DNA of 11,877 nt, from contig JAUXIR010000018.1 of the NCBI GenBank assembly GCA_030620915.1, positions 1 through 11,877 of the forward strand, in the 5' to 3' direction. Below are positions 1,984-11,877 of this stretch, in pieces. How positions within the stretch are numbered: position 1 is the stretch's first letter; each line of letters begins with the position of its first letter. The stretch is from Geopsychrobacter sp. Its GTDB lineage: Bacteria > Desulfobacterota > Desulfuromonadia > Desulfuromonadales > Geopsychrobacteraceae. The notes beneath the pieces are model-generated. The model ran no database searches. It was not told the origin of the DNA and saw only the letters and a program-made list of their open reading frames with translations. Made by a program: the position numbers and the translations under genes.

Positions 1984-3687
1984 ATGGCGCTCCCCTTTCT
2001 GGGTGACCGAAAACTCTTCGAACAACTCCCTCAGGCGGCCTTGCTGCTCGATCTGCAGGGGCAGGTGTTGGCAGCGAATACGCAGGCCTGTCGCTTACTG
2101 GCGACTGATGAGAAGGGTTTGCTTGGTCGTCATGCCGATGAGGCGACCGGATTTTCGGTGCTGGCAGAGAGCTGCCCGCTCGAAGAGGTGATTCAGCACG
2201 GAAGAGGTTTGCACCACCTCGAAATTGAAGGCCGGAGCGAGGGTCTGCCGTTGGTGGTTGAATTAACCCCGCTGCTTGGGGATGACGGCCAATGCGTGGC
2301 GCTGCTGGAATCATTTCGCGAGGCGCCGGTGATCCATGAAATGTCGGCCCGCTTGCAGCGTAAGCAGGCGAGCCTACAGGTTGAGATGGACCGTTCGCGC
2401 GCCCTGGTCGATTCCATCGCTGACGGCATCTATACCGTTGATACCTCCATGCGGATCACGGCCTTCTCCCGCAGCCTGGAACGGATGACCGGCTATGCCG
2501 AAGAAGAAGTTCTGGGCGCGCGCTGCCGCGATGTGTTGCAGACCAATGTCTGCGATACCGACTGTCCTCTGCGCTGGACCCTGGAGAACGAAAAGCCGAT
2601 CCAGAACTGTCGCGTCTCCCTGGCCAGTCGCACCGGGGAAGGGATCTCGGCTTTCATCTCATCCGACCTGTTACGCGACGCCGAAGGTCAAATTTGCGGT
2701 TGTATCGGGATTGTGCGTGATCGTTCCGAGGTCGAAAAACTGAAGCAGCGCCTGGGCGACAGCCTCTCCTTCAGTGATTTTGTCGGCAAGAGTAAGTCGA
2801 TGGTCGAACTCTTCGAACGAGCCGACAATGTGGCTGCTACCAATGCCACGGTATTGATTCAGGGCGAGAGCGGCACGGGAAAAGAGATCATGGCACGGGC
2901 GATCCATTACCGTTCAGCACGCCGCACACATCCCTTTATCCGGGTTAACTGTGCCGCGCTGACCGACAGCCTGCTTGAAAGTGAACTCTTCGGCCACGAC
3001 CGGGGGGCTTTTACCGGTGCGATCAGAGACAAGCCGGGGCGTTTCGAACTGGCCGATGGCGGCACCCTTTTTCTTGACGAGATCGGTGATACCTCGGTCG
3101 CCCTGCAAGCCAAACTGTTGCGCGCCCTGCAGGAGCGTGAGTTTGAGCGAGTCGGCGGGGTCAAGACGATCAAGACCGATGTCCGTGTGATCGCCGCATC
3201 CAATAAGGACCTGCGCCACGAGGTTGCCGCAGGCCGTTTCCGCGAGGACCTCTATTACCGCCTCTGTGTCGTCCCCTTGCATCTGCCGCCCTTGCGTGAG
3301 CGCAAGGAGGATATTCCCCTGCTAACGGAGGCTTTCATCGAAAAGTTTAATGCGCGGGAGGAACGAATCGGCGAGGTTTCAACCCGAGCCATGGCCCTGA
3401 TGATGGGATACGATTGGCCGGGGAATGTTCGTGAACTCGAAAATGCGATTGAGCACGCCTATGTCACCAGCACCACCGGACGCGTCGAAAGATGCTTTCT
3501 GCCCACGGTGCTGCAGGGCCGAGTCATAGGGCCTGGCAGCCTGGAAGATGGGTCTGCCGGGGAGGGATCTGAGGAGTTGCTGCAGGTGTTGGAGCGCTGT
3601 CGCTGGCAAAAAAGCGCCGCTGCGCAGGAACTGGGGATCAGTCGCACCACCCTGTGGCGCCGGATGAAGGATTCGGGTCTGATTTAA
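1984..3687 (+). CDS. Sigma-54-dependent transcriptional activator with two PAS domains
   Basis: This 567-residue bacterial enhancer-binding protein activates RNA polymerase carrying sigma-54 by ATP hydrolysis. Domains in order: PAS-like region 1 (about 12-110); a short helical linker (about 118-138); PAS 2 (about 139-246); AAA+ domain (about 265-500); a Fis-type helix-turn-helix (about 531-565, SAAAQELGISRTTLWRR). The AAA+ domain has Walker A GESGTGKE at 294-301, the sigma-54-contacting loop GAFTGA at 341-346 and Walker B GGTLFLDEIGD at 359-369, all intact. PAS 2 has a cluster of cysteines (181, 190, 194, 209, 238, 240) that could bind metal or sense redox state. There is no receiver domain, so it is probably a one-component sensor. 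The start has AGGA eight bases upstream. It shares a likely operon with torD (61-base gap) and probably controls the cytochrome-porin-molybdoenzyme genes. The sensed signal is not known. Confidence 0.95.
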   Translation: MALPFLGDRKLFEQLPQAALLLDLQGQVLAANTQACRLLATDEKGLLGRHADEATGFSVLAESCPLEEVIQHGRGLHHLEIEGRSEGLPLVVELTPLLGDDGQCVALLESFREAPVIHEMSARLQRKQASLQVEMDRSRALVDSIADGIYTVDTSMRITAFSRSLERMTGYAEEEVLGARCRDVLQTNVCDTDCPLRWTLENEKPIQNCRVSLASRTGEGISAFISSDLLRDAEGQICGCIGIVRDRSEVEKLKQRLGDSLSFSDFVGKSKSMVELFERADNVAATNATVLIQGESGTGKEIMARAIHYRSARRTHPFIRVNCAALTDSLLESELFGHDRGAFTGAIRDKPGRFELADGGTLFLDEIGDTSVALQAKLLRALQEREFERVGGVKTIKTDVRVIAASNKDLRHEVAAGRFREDLYYRLCVVPLHLPPLRERKEDIPLLTEAFIEKFNAREERIGEVSTRAMALMMGYDWPGNVRELENAIEHAYVTSTTGRVERCFLPTVLQGRVIGPGSLEDGSAGEGSEELLQVLERCRWQKSAAAQELGISRTTLWRRMKDSGLI

Positions 3688-3748: not shown

Positions 3749-4348
3749 ATGTTTGAAAACCATCAACGTCAGGATCTGTATCGTTTTTTTGCCCGAATTT
3801 TCAGCTATCCCGATGGTTCATTGATCGAGGATCTCTCGACAGAGCTTGCGGCGACGGCTGACCTGCTGTCGGTAAGCGTACCTCAGCTGAACCCTTCTCC
3901 TGACTTAGTCGAGCTTCAGGTTGCTTATACCGAGCTCTTCATCAGTCGGCTTGGTGGTGTGCCGGCCCCTCCCTATGGCTCGGTCTATCTCGAAGAAGCG
4001 GGGCAGTTGATGGGGCAAACGACGCAGTGTGTTTTGCGTGCCTACGAAGGGGAGGGTTTGAATCACGAAGTGGGGGGCGAGCCGCCCGATTTCATAGCGA
4101 CAGAGATGGAGTTTCTCTATTTTCTGGTCGGGCAGGAGATCGATGCGCTGTCAGGCAATGATCTGGAGCTCGCACGTGCCGCCCGCCAGAAGCAGATAGA
4201 CTTCTGCCACACCCTGCTGCAGCCCTGGATCAAGCAGTTTTCCCTGCGCGTCCTGCAGACCGAGAGCGCCGCCGAACCTTACCGCTGGTCGGCTGAGATG
4301 TTGATTGAGTTCTGCCGTCACGAGGAAGAGCTGTACGGAGTGGACTGA
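3749..4348 (+). CDS. TorD/DmsD-family molybdoenzyme-specific chaperone
   Basis: The 199-residue product is the usual length for TorD-family cytoplasmic chaperones, which bind the Tat signal of an apo-molybdoenzyme, help insert the bis-MGD cofactor and hold back export until folding is done. Family landmarks are visible: an N-terminal helical LYRFFARIFSYPD segment (11-22), PPYGSVYLEE (74-83) near the loop where family members have P-PY-S-Y, and the hallmark EPPDFIATEMEFLYFL (111-126). AAGGAG lies eleven bases before the ATG, slightly long but unambiguous. It follows the regulator and is closed by a strong terminator, so chaperone and regulator are probably made together ahead of the structural operon. 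Its client is most likely the Tat-exported molybdopterin protein at 7169-9370. Confidence 0.92.
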   Translation: MFENHQRQDLYRFFARIFSYPDGSLIEDLSTELAATADLLSVSVPQLNPSPDLVELQVAYTELFISRLGGVPAPPYGSVYLEEAGQLMGQTTQCVLRAYEGEGLNHEVGGEPPDFIATEMEFLYFLVGQEIDALSGNDLELARAARQKQIDFCHTLLQPWIKQFSLRVLQTESAAEPYRWSAEMLIEFCRHEEELYGVD

Positions 4349-4739: not shown

Positions 4740-4851
4740 AATTCTTGCAGGCAAATATTGCATTAATGGCGAGACAATGATATTAACGGCTGCGAATGTT
4801 GATTCGCTCATTTGCGGCACAAACATCCTAAATGTAAAGAAGGAGCAGAAA

Positions 4852-5175
4852 ATGAAATTGATGAAGGTTCTGATCGTGATGATGCTGGTGGTATTTGCCT
4901 CTACGGCGGTGCTGGCTTCAGAAGGTGGTAATTCGCGTAAGGGAAAATACCTCTACAAGAAAAGTTGCAAGACCTGCCATGTTGAAGGCGCTGAAGGCAG
5001 CGAGCTGACTCCGCTGTCGAAGACCCAGAAGCAGTGGGACCGTTTCTTTGAGAAGAACAAGCATAAGAAAAGTCCTGATGCCTGGAGCAAGTTCTCCGAC
5101 AAGGACATCAAGGACGTCAATCAGTTCCTGTTTGACCACGCCGTTGACTCTGATCAGCCTGAAACCTGCGGTTGA
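4852..5175 (+). CDS. Small periplasmic monoheme c-type cytochrome
   Basis: The start at ATG 4852 is chosen because AGGAG lies six bases upstream and the 107-residue product then begins with a clean signal peptide, MKLMKVLIVMMLVVF, with likely cleavage after VLA (residue 22). An in-frame ATG at 4777 has no ribosome site. One heme-attachment motif, CKTCH, is at residues 39-43 in a GKYLYKKSCKTCH context typical of class I-like cytochromes. The mature protein contains no methionine, so the sixth heme ligand cannot be Met. His71 and His96 are candidates, or the site is open. The protein is very lysine-rich and ends PETCG with a lone Cys106. It lies first in the structural operon, 38 bases before the outer-membrane protein, and probably moves electrons in the periplasm. 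I cannot assign a named family. Confidence 0.9.
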   Translation: MKLMKVLIVMMLVVFASTAVLASEGGNSRKGKYLYKKSCKTCHVEGAEGSELTPLSKTQKQWDRFFEKNKHKKSPDAWSKFSDKDIKDVNQFLFDHAVDSDQPETCG

Positions 5176-5213
5176 GCAGAGATTTTAACTCTTTTTATCT
5201 GGAGGTATTAAAG

Positions 5214-7025
5214 ATGCAAAAGTTTTTGACCCTGTTGATGGTTTTGCTGCTGTTGGCTCCTGCCACGGTCATGGCAGCGACTGTCGACGACCTGCAAGAA
5301 CAGCTCGATGAGCTCAATGATCGTCTTTCGCAAGCCGAGCGTCATGTCGCTACCGACCGGATCAGCTGGTACGGTGACCTGCGGGTCAAGGCCGACACCG
5401 TCCACTACCAGGATCTGACCTACAATCCCGGCATCAAGGTTGATTTCGATGACTTTGCCGCCAAGGCATTTAACCCGGCCTCCGGCTTCACCACCCAGTT
5501 GACCGACGCGGGCGGCAACCCCTTGACTTTTGCTACCCCTGCGGGCAGTCAGGCCGAGTCTCTTGCGGGCATGTTTGCAAGTATGGACCCCAGCGGCTTA
5601 AGCCTTGGCAACCAACTTTCTCCCTTGACCAGCATGTTGCTCCAGCCCCAGAACGCCCAGTTGTTGGGTAACCTCTTGGCGGGCGGACCGTCCGCCCTTA
5701 TGACCGGCGTGACCCCGATGCCTTTTGCAGCCGGTCCGTCAACTGGCGACCTCAACAACGACATCCTCTACACCACCCGTCTGCGTCTGGGCATGAAGGC
5801 CAAGGTGTACGATAACGTCAACTTCTCCGGCCGTCTCAACATGTACAAGAACTGGGGTGATTCCACCGGCGTCAAGGTATTCGACTCCTGGAACTCCTTC
5901 ACCATGGACGGCACCAACTCCGGCAATACCAGTGGTGACTTCCTCCGTGTCGAGCGTGCCTACTTCGACTGGAAGAATATCGCCGACAGCAACTTCTATC
6001 TGTCGATCGGCCGTCGTCCCTCGACCTACGGCCCACCCACCCAGTTTCGCGAGAACGAGAAACGCGGCGGCACCCCCAGCGGTCATCTGGTCAACTTCAA
6101 CTTCGACGGCGTCACCATCGGCTATAAGCTCGGCGAGATCACCGGCGTCGAAGGCCAGGTTGTGCGCTTCTGTTACGGTCAAGGCTTCGAGTCCGAGTTC
6201 GGCAACGGCGAGCTCTTTAACACGATTGACACCGAAGACGTACACTTGGGCGGCTTTAACATCGACGCCATCAACGACGGCACCAACTTTCTGCAGTTCA
6301 CCCTGTTTCGGGCCCAGGACGTCACTGACGGCTTCAAGGGCTTAATGGGTTTCCCGAATCAGTTCGCTCCGGTGTTCGCCCCGACCCTGAACGAGGACCT
6401 GCAGAAATTCCCGACCTTCAACTTCGTGACCCGTGTTCAGCCTAGCACCAACATCGGTCACATTAACCTTGGCGGCGTTGGCTTCATCCGCGAAGAGGAG
6501 AACGGCATCAACTGGTTCGCCTCCTTCGGTTGGACTCAGGCCGATCCCAATGGCAAGGCCGGCATGTTCGGCGGTCTCCTTTCCGATGCCGTCTTTGAGG
6601 CAAATTTGAATGAGGCCGGTGACGAAATCATCATGGCTGCTGCACGCGCTGATAGCACAAAAAAGCGCGACGGTTACTCGGCCTATGTTGGTATTCAGAT
6701 TCCTGCCCCTATGGGTAAGTTCGGTCTCGAGTACAACTACGGTTCTCAGTACTGGACCCCATTCACTCAGGCGCAGGACGATATCGTCGGCAGCAAACTG
6801 GCCACCCGTGGTCATGTCGGCGAGGCTTACTACATCGTACAGGTCAACCCCAAGATGTTCATCAAGCTGGGTGGCCTCTACTATGACTACGAGTACACCA
6901 ACAGTGGCTCCCCAGTCGGCGCCCCTCAAAAGGTTGAGGACGTGATTGCCGGGACTGCATTCTCCATGCTGCCCGTAATCGACACCGTATGGAACGCCAA
7001 TGCGTCTCTGACGGTTAAGTTTTAA
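5214..7025 (+). CDS. DUF3373-family outer-membrane beta-barrel (porin-like) protein
   Basis: The start at ATG 5214 has GGAGG eight bases upstream and gives 603 residues. A signal peptide (1-21, ending VMAA) is followed by a short coiled coil (about 24-44, DDLQEQLDELNDRLSQAE), then ISWYGDLRVKAD, a common beginning of barrels in this family. Conserved-looking segments include LRVERAYFDWKNI, GRRPSTYGPPTQFRENEKRGGTPSGHLVNFNFDG and VTDGFKG. Alternating strands continue to a C-terminal SLTVKF with the terminal Phe expected for assembly by the BAM machinery. Family members occur in Desulfuromonadales and Campylobacterota. Their function is unknown or porin-like, by analogy to anion channels near metal or oxyanion reductases. 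A roughly 110-residue insertion (about 68-178), rich in Gly, Pro, Ala and Leu, separates the first two strands and may be a plug or surface loop. It is cotranscribed with the cytochrome. Pfam membership is from memory of the motifs. Confidence 0.85.
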   Translation: MQKFLTLLMVLLLLAPATVMAATVDDLQEQLDELNDRLSQAERHVATDRISWYGDLRVKADTVHYQDLTYNPGIKVDFDDFAAKAFNPASGFTTQLTDAGGNPLTFATPAGSQAESLAGMFASMDPSGLSLGNQLSPLTSMLLQPQNAQLLGNLLAGGPSALMTGVTPMPFAAGPSTGDLNNDILYTTRLRLGMKAKVYDNVNFSGRLNMYKNWGDSTGVKVFDSWNSFTMDGTNSGNTSGDFLRVERAYFDWKNIADSNFYLSIGRRPSTYGPPTQFRENEKRGGTPSGHLVNFNFDGVTIGYKLGEITGVEGQVVRFCYGQGFESEFGNGELFNTIDTEDVHLGGFNIDAINDGTNFLQFTLFRAQDVTDGFKGLMGFPNQFAPVFAPTLNEDLQKFPTFNFVTRVQPSTNIGHINLGGVGFIREEENGINWFASFGWTQADPNGKAGMFGGLLSDAVFEANLNEAGDEIIMAAARADSTKKRDGYSAYVGIQIPAPMGKFGLEYNYGSQYWTPFTQAQDDIVGSKLATRGHVGEAYYIVQVNPKMFIKLGGLYYDYEYTNSGSPVGAPQKVEDVIAGTAFSMLPVIDTVWNANASLTVKF

Positions 7026-7117: not shown

Positions 7118-7147
7118 GCCGGTTATTTGTGTTTAAGATTAACCGGC
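7118..7147 (+). repeat. Inverted repeat just upstream of the molybdoenzyme ribosome site
   Basis: GCCGGTTA (7118-7125) and TAACCGGC (7140-7147) are perfect eight-base arms around a 14-base AT-rich spacer. The structure ends about ten bases before AGAGGAG (7156-7162). It could be an operator for a local promoter or an RNA hairpin that protects the transcript or modulates translation. No strong -35/-10 pair is seen in this 93-base stretch. Confidence 0.55.
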
Positions 7148-7168
7148 AAGTCGAAAGAGGAGTCTGAC

Positions 7169-9370
7169 GTGGCACGACTGATCGATAAAAAACTGAGTCG
7201 TCGGCGTTTTCTGGGTACCTCAAGTTGTGCTCTGGCTGTAGCAACAGTCGGTTCACAGACCACGGTACTCAAGGCGCTGGCCAGCTCTGGCAAGGTCACA
7301 ACGTCGCAGGGTGCAGGGACTAAGGATGTCTTTACCTCCTGCGGCATGTGTGTCAACAAGTGTGGAGTTATCGCCCGGGTTCGTGACGGTCGCATCCACA
7401 AGCTGGATCCGAACCCCGAATTCATCAAGAGTCGCGGCATGCTCTGCGCGCGCGGCAACGCCGGGGTTAAGGTCATCTATGATGCGGATCGTTTGAAGTA
7501 CCCCCTGATCCGCGTCGGAAAGCGCGGTGAGGGTAAATGGCGCCGCGCCAGCTGGGACGAGGCACTCGACCTGGTGGCGAAGAATATGAACGAGATCGCC
7601 GAAAAGTATACCCGCGCCGGGGTGATGTTCGCCTCGACCGAGGGAACCTTTCAGGAGCATTTTTTCCTGCAGATGGCCGAGTGTTATGGTTCGCCGAATA
7701 CAGTGCGCCACCCAAGCCTCTGCCTGACCTCCAATATTCAGGGCTTCGGTGCAACCTACGGCACCAACCCGACGCCCGATGTGCTGAATGCCGATTACAT
7801 CATCATGTCGGGATCCAACCGCAGCGAGGCGCTGATCACCCCCGATTCGATCGATCAGCTCAAGGGTGACGGCGGACGCCGCAAGCTGGTCTATCTCGAC
7901 CCGCGTTTCACCAAGACGGCGGCCAAGGCTAACGAATGGTACCCGATCAAGCCGGGCACCGATATGGCGTTTATCCTGGCGATGATCAACGTAATCGTCG
8001 GCGAAGGCCTTTCCGCTAAGGAGTTCGTCGAGGAGAGGACCGTCGGCTTCGACAAGCTCGTGCCCCACGTCAAGCCCTACACCCCGGAGTGGGCGGCCAA
8101 GGAATGCGAAATTCCGGCAGCAGATATCCGCCGGATCGCGCGTGAGTTTGCTGCGGCGGCGCCCAAGGCGGTCTACTATCAGGGCCGTCGTTCCTCCTTC
8201 TTCGACAATGATACCCAGATGCGCCGGGCGATGGCGATCTTGAACGCGATCATCGGCAACTGGGATACCGAAGGCGGGATGGTACCGAACAGCAAGATCA
8301 AGCTGGCCAAGCATGACTACCTGGCCCCCTGGTACGATGATGTCCCCGAGCGTCTCGACAAAGGCAGTGCGGTCTTTCTGTCGGAGAAGGACGGTTCCTG
8401 GGCCAACTTCCGTGATCGGGTGTTGGAGGCCAAGCCCTATCCGGTCAAGGGGATGATGATCTACAAGCAGAACGTGCTGGTGTCGGTCCCCAACCGCGCC
8501 AAGACCCTCAAGATGATGGATCAGATGGATTTCATCTGCACCATCGATATCGCCATGAGCGACACCGCCTGGTATTCAGACGTGGTGCTGCCTGAGGCGA
8601 CCTATCTCGAGCGCCAGGATCCCCTCGAGTCATTGGCCGGGATCCTGCCGGTGGTTGCCTTCCGTCAGCCCTGCGTAGAGGCGATGTTCGAAAGCAAGCC
8701 GAACCTCTGGATCATGCAGAATCTGGCCAAGCGCCTCGGGTCCGAGGTTGCCGAAACCTTCGATTTCACTATGGATGAGCATATCCATCATCAGGTGAGC
8801 AAGAACCCCCGGATCCTGAAGGATCTCAAGACTAAAGGGGTGCACTACATGAAGGTTCTGCCGACCTACGGCCTGACCACTGGCAAGCGCCTCAAGACCA
8901 AAACCGGCAAGATCGAGATCTATTCGGCAAATTATGCCAAGAAGGGTCTCGACCCGCTACCGGTTTATACCCGGCATGAGGATGTGCCGGCAAACAAGTT
9001 CCGTCTGCTGGTCGGGCGCAGCGCTTTCTTCACCCATGGAACCACGGCTAACAACGCCTACCTGCATGACATCATGCCGGAGAATACCCTGTGGCTGAAC
9101 ACCCTGTCGGCAAAAAAGATGGGCCTCCGTCACGGGCAGATGGTCAAGGTTAAGAGCAAGGTCGGAGAAGGGACCCTCAAGCTTGAGGTCACTGAAAAGA
9201 TTCGCCCCGACTGTGTCTATATGGCGCACGGCTTCGGAGTTATCTCCAAGGGACAGTCGTTGATCTTCGGCCGTGGGGCCAGCGATGCTGCCTTGATTGA
9301 GGAGAAGGTCGAGCCGATTTCCGGCAATATCGCCATGCACCAGACCTTCGTAGAGATCAGCCCCGCCTAA
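7169..9370 (+). CDS. Tat-exported molybdopterin oxidoreductase, catalytic subunit (PsrA/PhsA-like CISM family)
   Basis: The start is GTG 7169, with AGAGGAG six bases upstream, giving 733 residues that begin with a twin-arginine signal, SRRRFLG at 10-16. An upstream ATG at 7127 would lie within the inverted repeat and lacks a ribosome site. The mature protein opens with a [4Fe-4S] motif, Cys58-x2-Cys61-x3-Cys65-x27-Cys93 (last part MLCARGNAG). Cys185, in HPSLCLTSN, is at the position of the molybdenum ligand, as in sulfur and arsenic reductases rather than the Ser of DMSO reductase or the Asp of respiratory nitrate reductase. Further cofactor-binding segments follow (GSNRSEALITPDS, YLDPRFTKTA). 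The C-terminal dinucleotide-binding domain starts near residue 610 (RLLVGRSAFFTHGTTANN). The protein should act in the periplasm with the ferredoxin and NrfD subunits encoded next, and TorD is its probable chaperone. The electron acceptor cannot be assigned: polysulfide, thiosulfate, tetrathionate, arsenate, selenate and antimonate are candidates, and reverse (oxidative) operation is possible. Confidence 0.93.
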   Translation: MARLIDKKLSRRRFLGTSSCALAVATVGSQTTVLKALASSGKVTTSQGAGTKDVFTSCGMCVNKCGVIARVRDGRIHKLDPNPEFIKSRGMLCARGNAGVKVIYDADRLKYPLIRVGKRGEGKWRRASWDEALDLVAKNMNEIAEKYTRAGVMFASTEGTFQEHFFLQMAECYGSPNTVRHPSLCLTSNIQGFGATYGTNPTPDVLNADYIIMSGSNRSEALITPDSIDQLKGDGGRRKLVYLDPRFTKTAAKANEWYPIKPGTDMAFILAMINVIVGEGLSAKEFVEERTVGFDKLVPHVKPYTPEWAAKECEIPAADIRRIAREFAAAAPKAVYYQGRRSSFFDNDTQMRRAMAILNAIIGNWDTEGGMVPNSKIKLAKHDYLAPWYDDVPERLDKGSAVFLSEKDGSWANFRDRVLEAKPYPVKGMMIYKQNVLVSVPNRAKTLKMMDQMDFICTIDIAMSDTAWYSDVVLPEATYLERQDPLESLAGILPVVAFRQPCVEAMFESKPNLWIMQNLAKRLGSEVAETFDFTMDEHIHHQVSKNPRILKDLKTKGVHYMKVLPTYGLTTGKRLKTKTGKIEIYSANYAKKGLDPLPVYTRHEDVPANKFRLLVGRSAFFTHGTTANNAYLHDIMPENTLWLNTLSAKKMGLRHGQMVKVKSKVGEGTLKLEVTEKIRPDCVYMAHGFGVISKGQSLIFGRGASDAALIEEKVEPISGNIAMHQTFVEISPA

Positions 9371-9397
9371 GGGGTCAGCTGTTAAGGAGTGGAAAAG

Positions 9398-9952
9398 ATG
9401 AAAAATAAACGCTTCGCCATGGTCCTCGACACCCGGCGGTGCATCGACTGCAAGGCCTGTACGGTGGCCTGCAAGGCAGAAAACGATGTCCCTCTGGGGC
9501 CCGAGAACTATCGCAACTGGGTGGGTGAGGAAAAGTTACGTGGTAAATATCCGAACCTCGGACAGAGCAATACCCCCTGTCAGTGTCAGCACTGCGGCAA
9601 TCCGCCCTGTGCTCACGTTTGCCCGACCAAAGCCACCGAGGTCAACTCGGACGGTATCGTACACGTCGTGGCCGACAAGTGTATCGGCTGCAAGTACTGC
9701 ATGACCGCCTGCCCCTACAATGCTCGTTATTACAACGAGGAGACCGAGGCGGTCGACAAGTGCACCTTCTGCACCCAGCGTATCTACGCCGGGCGCCTGC
9801 CGGCCTGTGTTGAAACCTGTCCGACCAAGGTCCGGGTTTTTGGTGATCTTAACGATCCGAACAGCGAAGTTTCCAAGCTTCTGACCAAGTACCCCTCGCG
9901 GGTCCTTAAGGAATCTCAGGGAACCAAGCCGTATCTGATCTACATAATTTAG
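9398..9952 (+). CDS. Four-cluster ferredoxin subunit of the molybdoenzyme (PsrB/NrfC/DmsB-like)
   Basis: The start is ATG 9398; AAGGAG at 9384-9389 overlaps an in-frame GTG at 9389, which therefore cannot be the start. The 184-residue protein has 17 cysteines in the four-cluster pattern: 15-18-21-25; 63-66-71-75 (with Cys61 extra); 95-98-101-105; and 122-125-137-141. This supports four [4Fe-4S] clusters forming a wire between the membrane quinone site and the catalytic subunit. There is no signal peptide, so it is expected to cross the membrane together with the Tat-targeted catalytic subunit. The C-terminus GTKPYLIYII resembles other beta subunits of this family. It is 27 bases after the catalytic gene and 10 before the anchor gene, so it clearly belongs to one operon. 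Confidence 0.95.
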   Translation: MKNKRFAMVLDTRRCIDCKACTVACKAENDVPLGPENYRNWVGEEKLRGKYPNLGQSNTPCQCQHCGNPPCAHVCPTKATEVNSDGIVHVVADKCIGCKYCMTACPYNARYYNEETEAVDKCTFCTQRIYAGRLPACVETCPTKVRVFGDLNDPNSEVSKLLTKYPSRVLKESQGTKPYLIYII

Positions 9953-9962
9953 GAGAGGATCC

Positions 9963-11108
9963 ATGACTCTGTTAAAACATCGTCCAAGCTTCAAACTCTG
10001 GGTAGGGGTGCTCGCCATCGGCGTGGTCATCGGTATCGCCGGTGCCCTTAATGTGCTGCTCAATGGGCACTCCGCAGTCTACAACGTCACGCGCGAAATC
10101 CCCTGGGGCATCCTGATTGCGACCTACGTCTTTCTGGTGGTCTCAAGCACCGGGCTCTGCCTGGTCTCGAGTCTCGGCCACGTTTTCGGGATTGAGAAAT
10201 TCGATTTTATCGGCAAGCGCGCCATCATCCTGGCGATACTGACCCTGCTCTGCGGCTTCGGTGCCATCGGCATGGAGTTGACCCATCCGATCCGCATGGG
10301 GCTCTACACGATCCTCAGCCCTAATTTCTCCTCGCCGATCTGGTGGATGGGCACCCTCTACGGCCTCTATCTGGTGCTGCTCTGTGCGGAGCTCTTCTTC
10401 CTGATGAAGGGAATGCACAAGGGTGCGTTCGCCATGGGCATGATCGGTTTTATTGCCGCGATCACCGCTCACTCCAATCTGGGCGCGGTCTTCGGTCTGC
10501 TTGAGGCCCGCCCCTACTGGCATGGCTCGTTCCTGCCGATCTATTTCATCGTCTCGGCACTGGTTTCAGGAGGCGCGATCGTCAGTATGATCGTTTACTT
10601 CAACCACAAGACGACTGGGGAGCCGATGCCGCAGAAGTACGAGGATTTCATGGGCACCCTCGGCAAGCTGCAGGCACTCTTTCTGCTGATTCTGGTCTTC
10701 TTTGTGGTATGGAAGATTATTCCCGGACTCTACGGTCATCCGCCCGAGAAATATGAAGCGACAGTCGCAGTTTTGTCCGGACCCCTGGCATTCAACTTCT
10801 GGTTCTTTGAGGTGATGCTCGGCCTGGCCATTCCGGTCATCCTGCTGCTGAACAAGAAGACCCGTACCCCCTATGGGGTGATGATGGCCGGGCTCTCGTC
10901 AACCGTCGGGATCTTCTTCATGCGTTACGACCTGGTAATTGCCGGTCAATTGGTCAGCATGCGCGAAGGGACTGCCGATCTGGTGGGCGGTCTGTTGCAG
11001 TACAGCCCCTCGGTAACCGAAATCGCGATTGTGATTGGTGCCATCAGTACCTGTCTGTTGTTGTACACCATCGCCGAACGGTTACTGCCGCTTGAAAGCG
11101 ATCATTAG
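9963..11108 (+). CDS. NrfD/PsrC-family quinone-interacting membrane subunit
   Basis: This 381-residue integral membrane protein has about ten hydrophobic segments (near 12-33, 47-70, 86-104, 125-147, 155-172, 188-212, 234-256, 272-296, 302-320 and 353-371). Family landmarks are REIPWG (44-49), MELTHP (104-109), SPIWWM (124-129) and the conserved AHSNLGAVFG...ARPYWHG block (169-188). NrfD/PsrC proteins carry a menaquinol site and no heme, and pass electrons to the adjacent ferredoxin subunit. AGGAG overlaps the stop codon of the preceding gene and lies seven bases before the ATG, indicating tight translational linkage. It is the last gene before a strong terminator. Confidence 0.94.
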   Translation: MTLLKHRPSFKLWVGVLAIGVVIGIAGALNVLLNGHSAVYNVTREIPWGILIATYVFLVVSSTGLCLVSSLGHVFGIEKFDFIGKRAIILAILTLLCGFGAIGMELTHPIRMGLYTILSPNFSSPIWWMGTLYGLYLVLLCAELFFLMKGMHKGAFAMGMIGFIAAITAHSNLGAVFGLLEARPYWHGSFLPIYFIVSALVSGGAIVSMIVYFNHKTTGEPMPQKYEDFMGTLGKLQALFLLILVFFVVWKIIPGLYGHPPEKYEATVAVLSGPLAFNFWFFEVMLGLAIPVILLLNKKTRTPYGVMMAGLSSTVGIFFMRYDLVIAGQLVSMREGTADLVGGLLQYSPSVTEIAIVIGAISTCLLLYTIAERLLPLESDH

Positions 11109-11154
11109 GGTACCATCGGACAGGCTCGCCCAGGCGACCTGCCCTTACCTCCTT

Positions 11155-11181
11155 GGCCGGCCTTCGGGCCGGTCTTTTTTT
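11155..11181 (+). terminator. Rho-independent terminator of the molybdoenzyme operon
   Basis: GGCCGGCC / GGGCCGGTC pairs over eight base pairs (one G-T) around a TTCG loop closed by C-G, the very stable UUCG tetraloop in RNA, followed by seven T residues. It lies 46 bases after the NrfD stop. Confidence 0.92.
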
Positions 11182-11206
11182 AAGTTGCCTGGCGTCACAA
11201 CTGAGA

Positions 11207-11235
11207 TTGCCTGCATTTTTTAGATAGATTATGCT
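11207..11235 (+). promoter_or_regulatory. Candidate sigma-70 promoter for the small ORF
   Basis: TTGCCT (11207-11212) and TATGCT (11230-11235) are separated by exactly 17 bases; each matches consensus at four of six positions. It lies just after the preceding terminator and would give a leader of about 15 bases before the ATG at 11257. Confidence 0.35.
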
Positions 11236-11256
11236 TAGGAAAAAGGAGAATGCATT

Positions 11257-11409
11257 ATGGATCTGCTTTGGTTGCTCGGTATTATCGTTGGTTGGATTGT
11301 GTTGAACCGCTGGGTTTTGCCCCGCATGGGGGTTCAAACCTGAATGTCTGCCTCCTGTAGTCCTCCCGTGCGGAAGACCGATGAAGATACGCCTGAAAAT
11401 CCCGAATAA
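11257..11409 (+). CDS. Candidate small membrane-anchored selenoprotein (in-frame TGA at 11341)
   Basis: ATG 11257 follows AGGAG at 11244-11248, eight bases upstream. The first 28 codons give a short, almost purely hydrophobic helix, DLLWLLGIIVGWIVL, followed by NRWVLPRMGVQT. TGA at 11341-11343 would then stop translation. However, the same frame stays open for 21 more codons to TAA at 11407-11409, encoding MSASCSPPVR followed by an acidic, hydrophilic tail. Read as selenocysteine, the product is 50 residues: a single N-terminal membrane anchor, then Sec29 and Cys34 as a U-x4-C pair, then a charged tail. A bidirectional terminator starts two bases after TAA, which fits TAA as the true end. A weak stem-loop follows the TGA. 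If TGA is a real stop, the gene is a 28-residue membrane peptide (11257-11343). I do not recognise a characterised function; a redox role is inferred only from U and C. Confidence 0.6.
11346..11378 (+). other. Weak SECIS-like stem-loop after the TGA codon
   Basis: GTCTGCCTC (11346-11354) can pair with GCGGAAGAC (11370-11378): seven pairs and two mismatches around a 15-base loop. It begins two bases after the TGA, and its loop lies about 11-26 bases downstream, within the range for bacterial selenocysteine insertion elements. The fold is weak and was judged by eye, so it supports the selenoprotein call only modestly. Confidence 0.3.
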
Positions 11410-11411
11410 AT

Positions 11412-11447
11412 AAAAAGCGGGCCCGTTTAAGACAGGCCCGCTTTTTT
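11412..11447. terminator. Bidirectional terminator between convergent genes
   Basis: AAAAAGCGGGCC (11412-11423) and GGCCCGCTTTTT (11435-11446) pair perfectly over 12 bases around an 11-base loop. The T run serves the plus-strand small ORF, and the A run becomes a T run for the minus-strand zinc-ribbon gene that ends at 11492. Confidence 0.93.
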
Positions 11448-11491
11448 AAATTGGTGCGTCACTTATGCCTACGCCATGGCACTCTTTTCAC

Positions 11492-11827
11492 TTAGCGCAG
11501 GCCGGTTCCGCAACGGGGACAGGTCAGTATGATATTGGCCGAAATCTTGTCGCCGCAGGTCGGACAGTTAAACCAATGCCTGCATGAGCGGCACTGCTGT
11601 TCGGAAAGGCCCTGCTTCTTCTTACACTTGGGACAACGGCGATACTCCTTGCGTTGGCCCAGGTAATCCTCAAAGAAGAGCCCACAACGCGGACAGTCTT
11701 CAGCGTCAGGTCTGGTAATGTCCGTCTCACAGCCGTGCAGTGGGCACTTAAAAACCGTTTTACAGCTTGAACACCAGTATTTGCCTTTAAGTACAGCCTT
11801 ACAACTCGGACATGTTTTTTCCGGCAT
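11492..11827 (-). CDS. Small protein of four tandem zinc ribbons
   Basis: ATG 11827 is preceded by GAGGGAG six bases upstream; a GTG one codon earlier is less likely. The 111-residue product has 16 cysteines that fall into four CxxC...CxxC-type sets: 6/9/19/22, 28/33/45/48, 65/68/79/82 and 88/91/103/106. The second set begins with a CxxxxC. It therefore looks like two double-zinc-ribbon units binding four zinc ions. It is rich in Lys and Arg, has no signal peptide or membrane segment, and should be cytoplasmic. Such ribbons bind nucleic acid or protein partners; no specific function can be assigned. It converges on the small ORF and shares its terminator. The upstream promoter is not clear within the 50 bases left in the window. 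Confidence 0.88.
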   Translation of the reverse strand: MPEKTCPSCKAVLKGKYWCSSCKTVFKCPLHGCETDITRPDAEDCPRCGLFFEDYLGQRKEYRRCPKCKKKQGLSEQQCRSCRHWFNCPTCGDKISANIILTCPRCGTGLR

Positions 11828-11877
11828 CACTCACTCCCTCTTTCACAACCTAAAATCCCAGTCGACTCGGCAGCGCC

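Follow-up and report, generated by a model that had tools for sequence, protein, structure and literature searches.

Candidate family of very small membrane selenoproteins with a U-x4-C motif in Desulfobacterota and Planctomycetota

The window, by which we mean the whole 11,877-nucleotide stretch of Geopsychrobacter DNA analysed, carries near one end of its forward strand a small gene hidden from gene finders by a mid-gene 'stop' codon that is very probably read as selenocysteine. An ATG at 11257 is followed by 28 codons, a TGA at 11341–11343, a further 21 codons and a TAA at 11407–11409, and the product encoded by 11257–11409 is MDLLWLLGIIVGWIVLNRWVLPRMGVQT-U-MSASCSPPVRKTDEDTPENPE with U written for the TGA. 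The predicted coding sequence (11257–11406, + strand) specifies a 50-residue selenoprotein of 28 residues, Sec and 21 residues, and is backed by the ORF itself and by its presence in 50/60 and 166/395 genomes. A Shine-Dalgarno sequence, AAGGAG (11243–11248, +), lies 8 nt 5' of the start codon, and, judged by eye, most of a set of 30 relatives have a similar purine-rich stretch ahead of their start codon. The putative selenocysteine (residue 29; 11341–11343, +) is assigned from the conservation of the TGA and from the Cys found at this site in relatives, and the partner Cys codon of the U-x4-C motif (residue 34; 11356–11358, +) is invariant in a 23-row alignment. These coordinates bear out an earlier note made from the window sequence, which had described the ribosome site, the 28-codon ORF to the TGA and the 21 codons to the TAA; its placing of the recoded residue next to a Cys does not hold, as four residues separate U29 from C34. 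Two bases past the TAA, as the note also had it, begins a terminator stem (11412–11446; −21.4 kcal/mol, z −5.02, 0/200 shuffles as good), which is listed here without a strand, was reported on the minus strand by the terminator scan and lies between the selenoprotein gene and a convergent gene (11492–11830, − strand) for a 112-residue zinc-ribbon-like protein. A neighbour of the latter type was seen at 7/65 loci, at varied distances.

Upstream lies an operon, separate from the small gene (7127–11108, +), that profile matches identify as encoding a PhsA/PsrA-like molybdopterin oxidoreductase, a 4Fe-4S protein and an NrfD membrane protein (PF03916, 114 bits); the PhsA model was matched at 539 bits, below its cut-off of 694. 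Before 7127 come a TorD-like chaperone (3749–4348), a small cytochrome c (4777–5175) and a DUF3373 protein (5172–7025), and a sigma-54 activator is encoded further upstream at 1984–3687. A DCC1-like thiol-disulfide oxidoreductase (PF04134, E 7.5e-24) is found at 289–693 on the minus strand. Because the upstream operon ends with its own terminator (11155–11182, +; −17.2 kcal/mol, z −3.52), situated between the operon and the selenoprotein gene, the latter is probably transcribed independently; a scan of 11050–11500 detected no sigma-70 consensus promoter. An NrfD cluster occurs at 6/65 loci, of which L037 and L124 belong to the genus of the window. Given this frequency and the intervening terminator, we regard a functional link to the NrfD/polysulfide-reductase-like operon as a hint only. 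At L098, L103 and L112, from three other families of the phylum, an upstream NrfD gene lies 0.66–0.9 kb from the Sec codon, and a short gene separates the two. A scan of 42 neighbours yielded three of the MerR type, which probably include these short genes.

A six-frame search placed the gene in 50 of 60 genomes, namely the source genome and 49 of 59 relatives, with one TGA inside each match and, in one match, a TAG as well. The other ten relatives gave no match in the six-frame search or in a profile re-search; three of the ten are rated less than 89% complete, so that absence of the gene and an assembly gap are indistinguishable there. In a phylum-wide sample of 395 genomes, a 23-member profile detected the gene in 166, source genome included, and among the matches listed a TGA lies inside each except that of G366, which ends at residue 28. 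Carriers of the family among 18 loci include Geopsychrobacter, Desulfuromonas, Syntrophobacteraceae and Desulfobacteraceae as well as Planctomycetales and Singulisphaera.

The codon at the site was read directly, codon by codon, with a pattern that requires a Cys 4–8 residues downstream; counts of stops within matches also take in end stops. All 85 distinct Desulfobacterota sequences have TGA, and the 60 distinct Planctomycetota sequences divide into 40 with TGA and 20 with Cys. Neither TAA nor TAG, which the earlier note would have taken as speaking against recoding, occurs at the site in any of the 145 distinct sequences (125 TGA, 20 Cys), and the stop that ends the gene varies among 108 distinct relatives (TAA 42, TGA 42, TAG 23, one not reached). 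Five motif matches with T, P, G, G and S at the site were dropped as other-frame chance matches, and a false motif match (L118) and a copy of the window (L003) were removed from the locus set. One locus, L222, has Cys at the site although its match was counted with one TGA. By genome, 23 Planctomycetota matches comprise 17 with TGA, three with Cys and three (G488, G615 and G622) whose codon was unreadable by the pattern. One Planctomycetota genome, G453, carries both a TGA copy and a Cys copy (L046 and L174), the Cys copy lying near an SQR/NDH-2-like flavoprotein.

Sequence is conserved on the far side of the TGA as well. The next residue is M or L in 93 of the 108 distinct relatives, and a Cys follows 4–8 residues past the site in all 108, the search pattern itself requiring that Cys. 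The residues between Sec and Cys number four in 101 relatives, five in six and eight in one. The Sec-rich 23-row alignment has W13, W19, L21, P22, G25, T28, U29 and C34 invariant. The eight-residue spacing belongs to L112 (U-MSPGNGRS-C, at 5087), and a divergent member, L054 (at 6001), has the TGA without a Cys at +5 (GTU-MAPPRS). Because both sides of the TGA are conserved and continued in Cys-containing homologues, the frame from 11257 to 11409 is more than chance. The conservation downstream whose absence, according to the earlier note, would refute recoding is present, in the M or L that follows the TGA and in the Cys invariant in the alignment, and the note's proposal that the TGA is recoded is supported.

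A search of the protein database with the protein sequence from the window alone gave no match. A family profile, in contrast, found 1345 database proteins at E ≤ 0.01 from 2797 candidates, so the empty single-sequence search is a matter of shared words. Among the best 120 of the 1345, which are those listed, 113 have Cys at the site, two have W, one R and one G; two (P0111 and P0115) stop just before the site, and one departs from the motif. The second Cys is present in 117 of the 119 listed matches that show the motif. Homologues with Cys at the TGA position, proposed beforehand as a check, exist both in the 20 Planctomycetota sequences and among these proteins. Sequence comparison shows that the in-frame TGA occupies a coding position, which Cys takes in other relatives.

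A putative SECIS hairpin of the bacterial kind lies downstream (11360–11378, +), with an apical loop, CGUGC, 26–30 nt from the T of the TGA. It is a signal of the family, and the copy in the window is itself weak and not significant alone (−5.5 kcal/mol, z −0.40, 56/200 shuffles as good, one mismatch). Among 97 non-redundant TGA members, the stretch 15–42 nt past the TGA was predicted to fold into a more stable structure than 150 protein-preserving resamples, at a mean z of −2.02 and with 92/97 below the mean of their resamples; the wider stretch of 3–48 nt gave −1.15 (83/97). Under this synonymous null, in which codon usage was pooled over the family and not per genome, two upstream windows that served as the control gave z values of 0.07 and −0.22. 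The loop of the strongest hairpin (windows starting 9–32 nt after the T) lies at 20–29 nt in 96/97 and at 15 in one; bacterial SECIS elements have their apical loop ~16–37 nt from the UGA. In four subgroups of 17, 13, 10 and 7 sequences, the common helices were paired in 91, 78, 74 and 81% of cells and exceeded all 500 resamples in each, the helices having been derived from the same sequences that were scored and some pairs being often broken in two subgroups. One Cys member, L049, retains the hairpin of its TGA relatives and looks like a recent Sec-to-Cys change. Across the family, then, the TGA is trailed by a predicted hairpin of the bacterial SECIS kind.

We also searched for the selenocysteine machinery. 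In the source genome, an assembly of 2.04 Mb with an estimated completeness of 70%, one contig carries both selB (347.8 bits, over the cut-off) and selD (343.1 bits). The latter reads SGUAAKI across an in-frame TGA, which we take to be the known Sec site of SelD. By such a reading of this locus (L159, contig C335, next to selB), selenophosphate synthetase would itself be a selenoprotein. Of the machinery that the earlier note had listed, selB and a TGA-bearing selD were detected, and selA and selC (a tRNA-Sec over the cut-off) were not, in an assembly that is 70% complete. A search of the 60 genomes gave a tRNA-Sec over the cut-off in 52, the source genome not among them. In the phylum sample selA is present in 354/395 genomes, with 158/166 that have the gene compared with 196/229 that do not (Fisher p 0.002), so that selA is common among genomes lacking the gene too. 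In Planctomycetota, the TGA codon was read in 20 genomes, and selA was detected in 16 of these and not in the other four. It was found in 0/4 Cys-only genomes, a split whose chance is 70/10626, ~0.007. Genomes G488, G615 and G622, all with selA, were dropped here for their unreadable codon, and the figures before dropping them were 19/23 and 0/4, a difference that left our assessment as it was. Thirteen of the 20 listed Planctomycetota genomes without a family match have selA. Overall, we are almost certain that the gene encodes a selenoprotein.

The product has a simple predicted build. In an AlphaFold2 model (mean pLDDT 72.3; 91, 88, 70, 58 and 55 per successive ten residues), a single transmembrane helix spans residues 2–23 (11260–11325, +), and the tail is of low confidence. 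Acid residues precede the helix and Arg/Lys residues lie at and past its end. By the positive-inside rule, this arrangement suggests a cytoplasmic tail. We consider a membrane-anchored redox pair to be likely on the basis of these features of the protein.

In-frame fusions to a thioredoxin domain with WCGPC were found at four loci of one Planctomycetota order, with Cys at the site in L214 and L216 and TGA in L233 and L241, and the fused domains matched PF00085 at E 1.3e-28 to 2.7e-32. A search with the L214 module returned six proteins: one 100% identical protein of 162 residues that is probably L214 itself, four further Cys-type fusions of 163–171 residues with PF00085, and a 99-residue protein that matched no Pfam domain. 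Of all the evidence here, these fusions are the most direct link between the U/C pair and thiol chemistry, and they agree with a cytoplasmic tail.

The neighbourhood of the gene differs between lineages. No conserved operon around it was found in Desulfobacterota in a set of 65 loci, seven of them from Planctomycetota, and recurrent neighbours are restricted to parts of that set; across 77 loci that include Planctomycetota, the nearest neighbour is on the same strand upstream in 48 and downstream in 33. Probes for sulfur genes detected no SQR, MBL-rhodanese, TauE, YeeE, rhodanese, YgaP-TM or thioredoxin near 58 Desulfobacterota loci, and ArsR at two of them (L094 and L107). At 51 Planctomycetota loci they found ArsR at 14, zf-HC2 anti-sigma-like proteins at 13, YgaP-TM at 11 (two of them through rhodanese proteins), MBL-rhodanese at 10, SQR-like proteins at 9, TauE at 8, YeeE/YedE at 4 and thioredoxin at 5, two of the last being fusions and the fusions L214 and L216 lying outside the count; L218, L219 and L221, which have no motif match, were left out of these neighbour counts (37-locus set). 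A sulfide/persulfide neighbourhood is thus present at part of the 51 Planctomycetota loci and absent at the 58 Desulfobacterota loci. At the Cys loci L161 and L162, the order is TauE/SafE, an MBL-rhodanese (persulfide-dioxygenase-like), the small gene and an SQR-like flavoprotein. Among 69 Planctomycetota neighbour proteins, Pfam matches comprised Rhodanese 13, zf-HC2 11, HTH_5 10, Lactamase_B 9, YgaP-like_TM 9, Pyr_redox_2 8, TauE 6, Sulf_transp 6 and DsrE 2; these proteins were chosen for the recurrence of their clusters, and independence cannot be assumed between related Planctomycetota loci, which makes the figures counts and not a test. The zf-HC2 anti-sigma-like gene lies directly upstream of the small gene at its 13 loci (L163 and 12 among L205–L237), and several of these loci continue with a YgaP-like TM gene and a cytochrome-bd-like or HlyD-like gene, an unnamed recurrent cluster.

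The best explanation overall, to which we assign a probability of about 0.7, is a membrane-anchored selenol/thiol redox protein that probably serves sulfane sulfur. One N-terminal transmembrane helix would anchor a short cytoplasmic tail, in which Sec29 and Cys34, lying close to the inner membrane surface, would constitute a selenenylsulfide/dithiol redox pair. From the Planctomycetota gene context and the fusions, we infer that this pair may exchange with, and be reduced by, thioredoxin, and that it may act in sulfide or sulfane-sulfur (persulfide) handling, for example as an acceptor, at the membrane and close to sulfide:quinone oxidoreductase, of sulfane sulfur or electrons that would then go on to rhodanese, persulfide-dioxygenase-like or thioredoxin partners. 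On function, the earlier note had gone no further than the redox pair, and the links to sulfur genes and thioredoxin are new here. For the sulfane-sulfur role taken separately, which this same context and these fusions suggest, we consider the odds to be even. Many Desulfobacterota are sulfur or sulfate respirers, and in this phylum the same reactions would be directed at free (poly)sulfide at the membrane, which is the weakest step of the proposal. Still more tentative is a selenocysteine relay for sulfane sulfur at the membrane, in which the one-helix UX4C protein, as a selenoprotein frequent in Desulfobacterota yet missing from catalogues, would become a selenopersulfide or selenenylsulfide on the cytoplasmic side and shuttle sulfur or electrons between the sulfide enzymes of the membrane and thioredoxin or rhodanese, the Cys version doing likewise in the sulfide-oxidising operons of Planctomycetota.

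Instead of serving sulfur, the protein could be a selenol reductant of the membrane that works in general oxidative defence or in a disulfide relay. The zf-HC2 anti-sigma-like genes just upstream at 13/51 Planctomycetota loci speak for such a function, as do matches of 11/69 neighbour proteins to the RsrA model (best E 1e-8) and the CcdA-like and TlpA-like genes, named from sequence by eye, near a few loci of the window's class; against it, SQR, MBL-rhodanese, TauE and sulfur-transport genes recur in differing orders in Planctomycetota, and we hold this function to be unlikely while giving it some weight. A further alternative, also unlikely, is metal or metalloid binding (Cu, Zn, Hg or As) by Sec29 and Cys34, which would make the selenoprotein a small membrane chaperone or the partner of a sensor and not a carrier of sulfur or redox equivalents. 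The variable Sec–Cys spacing leaves room for a metal site, some Cys-form tails have extra Cys residues, HlyD-type proteins lie nearby and ArsR/SmtB-type regulators occur at 14/51 Planctomycetota loci, but the thioredoxin fusions and the SQR, MBL-rhodanese, TauE and YeeE neighbours fit sulfur. Since the ArsR proteins match metal-sensor models and also the BigR model NF040642 (10/69 proteins, best E 5.9e-14), they do not decide the ligand.

The remaining alternatives concern the codon itself. Reading of the UGA as a residue other than Sec, such as Trp by read-through or a suppressor, would accommodate the W at the site in P0001 and P0003, which most likely arose when a gene caller translated TGA with a different code table; with Cys as the replacement in 113/120 listed relatives, a SECIS-like hairpin present and selA in 0/4 Cys-only genomes compared with 16/20 with a read TGA codon, it is very improbable. 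That the TGA is a true stop, releasing a 28-residue membrane peptide from 28 codons with a good ribosome site and leaving 3' untranslated sequence behind, is scarcely credible, for although P0111 and P0115 stop just short of the TGA position, the truncation expected of a gene caller, the protein sequence behind it is conserved and continued by Cys homologues, two natural fusions run from the TGA into a whole thioredoxin domain, and none of the 145 distinct sequences has TAA or TAG at the site, the end stop by contrast being variable.

We rate the selenoprotein reading as pointing to a new family of unusual build, relative to the curated libraries and to Table 1 of a 2026 inventory. No curated family was matched over cut-off in Pfam-A or in NCBIfam release 20 (best E 0.049 and 0.042, respectively); Pfam Arabinose_trans and MRAP and NCBIfam PRK13454 appeared below the cut-offs and look like chance. 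Neither the PDB sequences at E ≤ 1 nor, within the window, Rfam at gathering thresholds gave a match. That inventory (PMC13188914) sets out 119 bacterial selenoprotein families or subfamilies with motifs in its Table 1, in which, some rows having no motif, no row is recognisable as a small UX4C membrane protein. Supplementary tables apart, the description of the protein as undescribed stands in that no Pfam or NCBIfam model matches it and no row of that table is recognisable as it. A family found in 166 of 395 genomes of a phylum and in a second phylum, yet lacking a Pfam or NCBIfam model or a recognisable row in the table, suggests that very small selenoproteins escape catalogues compiled from long ORFs or from Cys homologues that are annotated. 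The coexistence of TGA and Cys versions within one Planctomycetota order, together with four Cys-only genomes without selA, offers a natural test of Sec retention, and the thioredoxin fusions and sulfide-gene neighbours make the sulfane-sulfur role testable.

Several known systems invite comparison. Sulfide-oxidation operons of the cst/BigR kind comprise an ArsR-type regulator, TauE, rhodanese, persulfide dioxygenase and SQR, and these gene types surround the small protein at some Planctomycetota loci; to our knowledge, a small UX4C/CX4C protein is not a named part of such operons. The FeoB-associated Cys-rich membrane protein, of ~50 residues with one N-terminal helix and a Cys motif behind it, resembles the family in plan only, and the family has no Pfam match. 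The YgaP-like TM domain (PF11127), which occurs beside or fused to rhodanese, is likewise a small membrane protein of the same sulfur-gene neighbourhoods, but it is a separate neighbouring gene (for example, at L163, L209, L210 and L212), and the family has no Pfam match to PF11127. Nearest by motif is TsoA (LULAxC, NF045695), in which a Cys also follows Sec closely and for which an ArsR/SmtB-type regulator model, TsoR, exists; its motif is L-U-L-A-x-C, with three residues between, compared with T-U-[ML]-S-x-x-C, with four, in the family. NF045695 was not among the NCBIfam matches of 23 members at E ≤ 1; TsoB and TsoR, models of the same series in that library, were matched in a separate search with neighbour proteins. 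The three hypothetical proteins in a table of the deep-Sep paper (PMC12013277) have the motifs GUxG, GxU and none given. Most characterised selenoproteins have thioredoxin-like folds (PMC13188914), and unlike these, the 50-residue protein has, in its model, no folded part beyond one helix. With the bacterial selenoproteins of that inventory, as its Table 1 presents them, it nevertheless shares the in-frame TGA, a hairpin just downstream, Cys homologues and a U...C motif, and of the Sec machinery genes selB and selD were detected in its genome.
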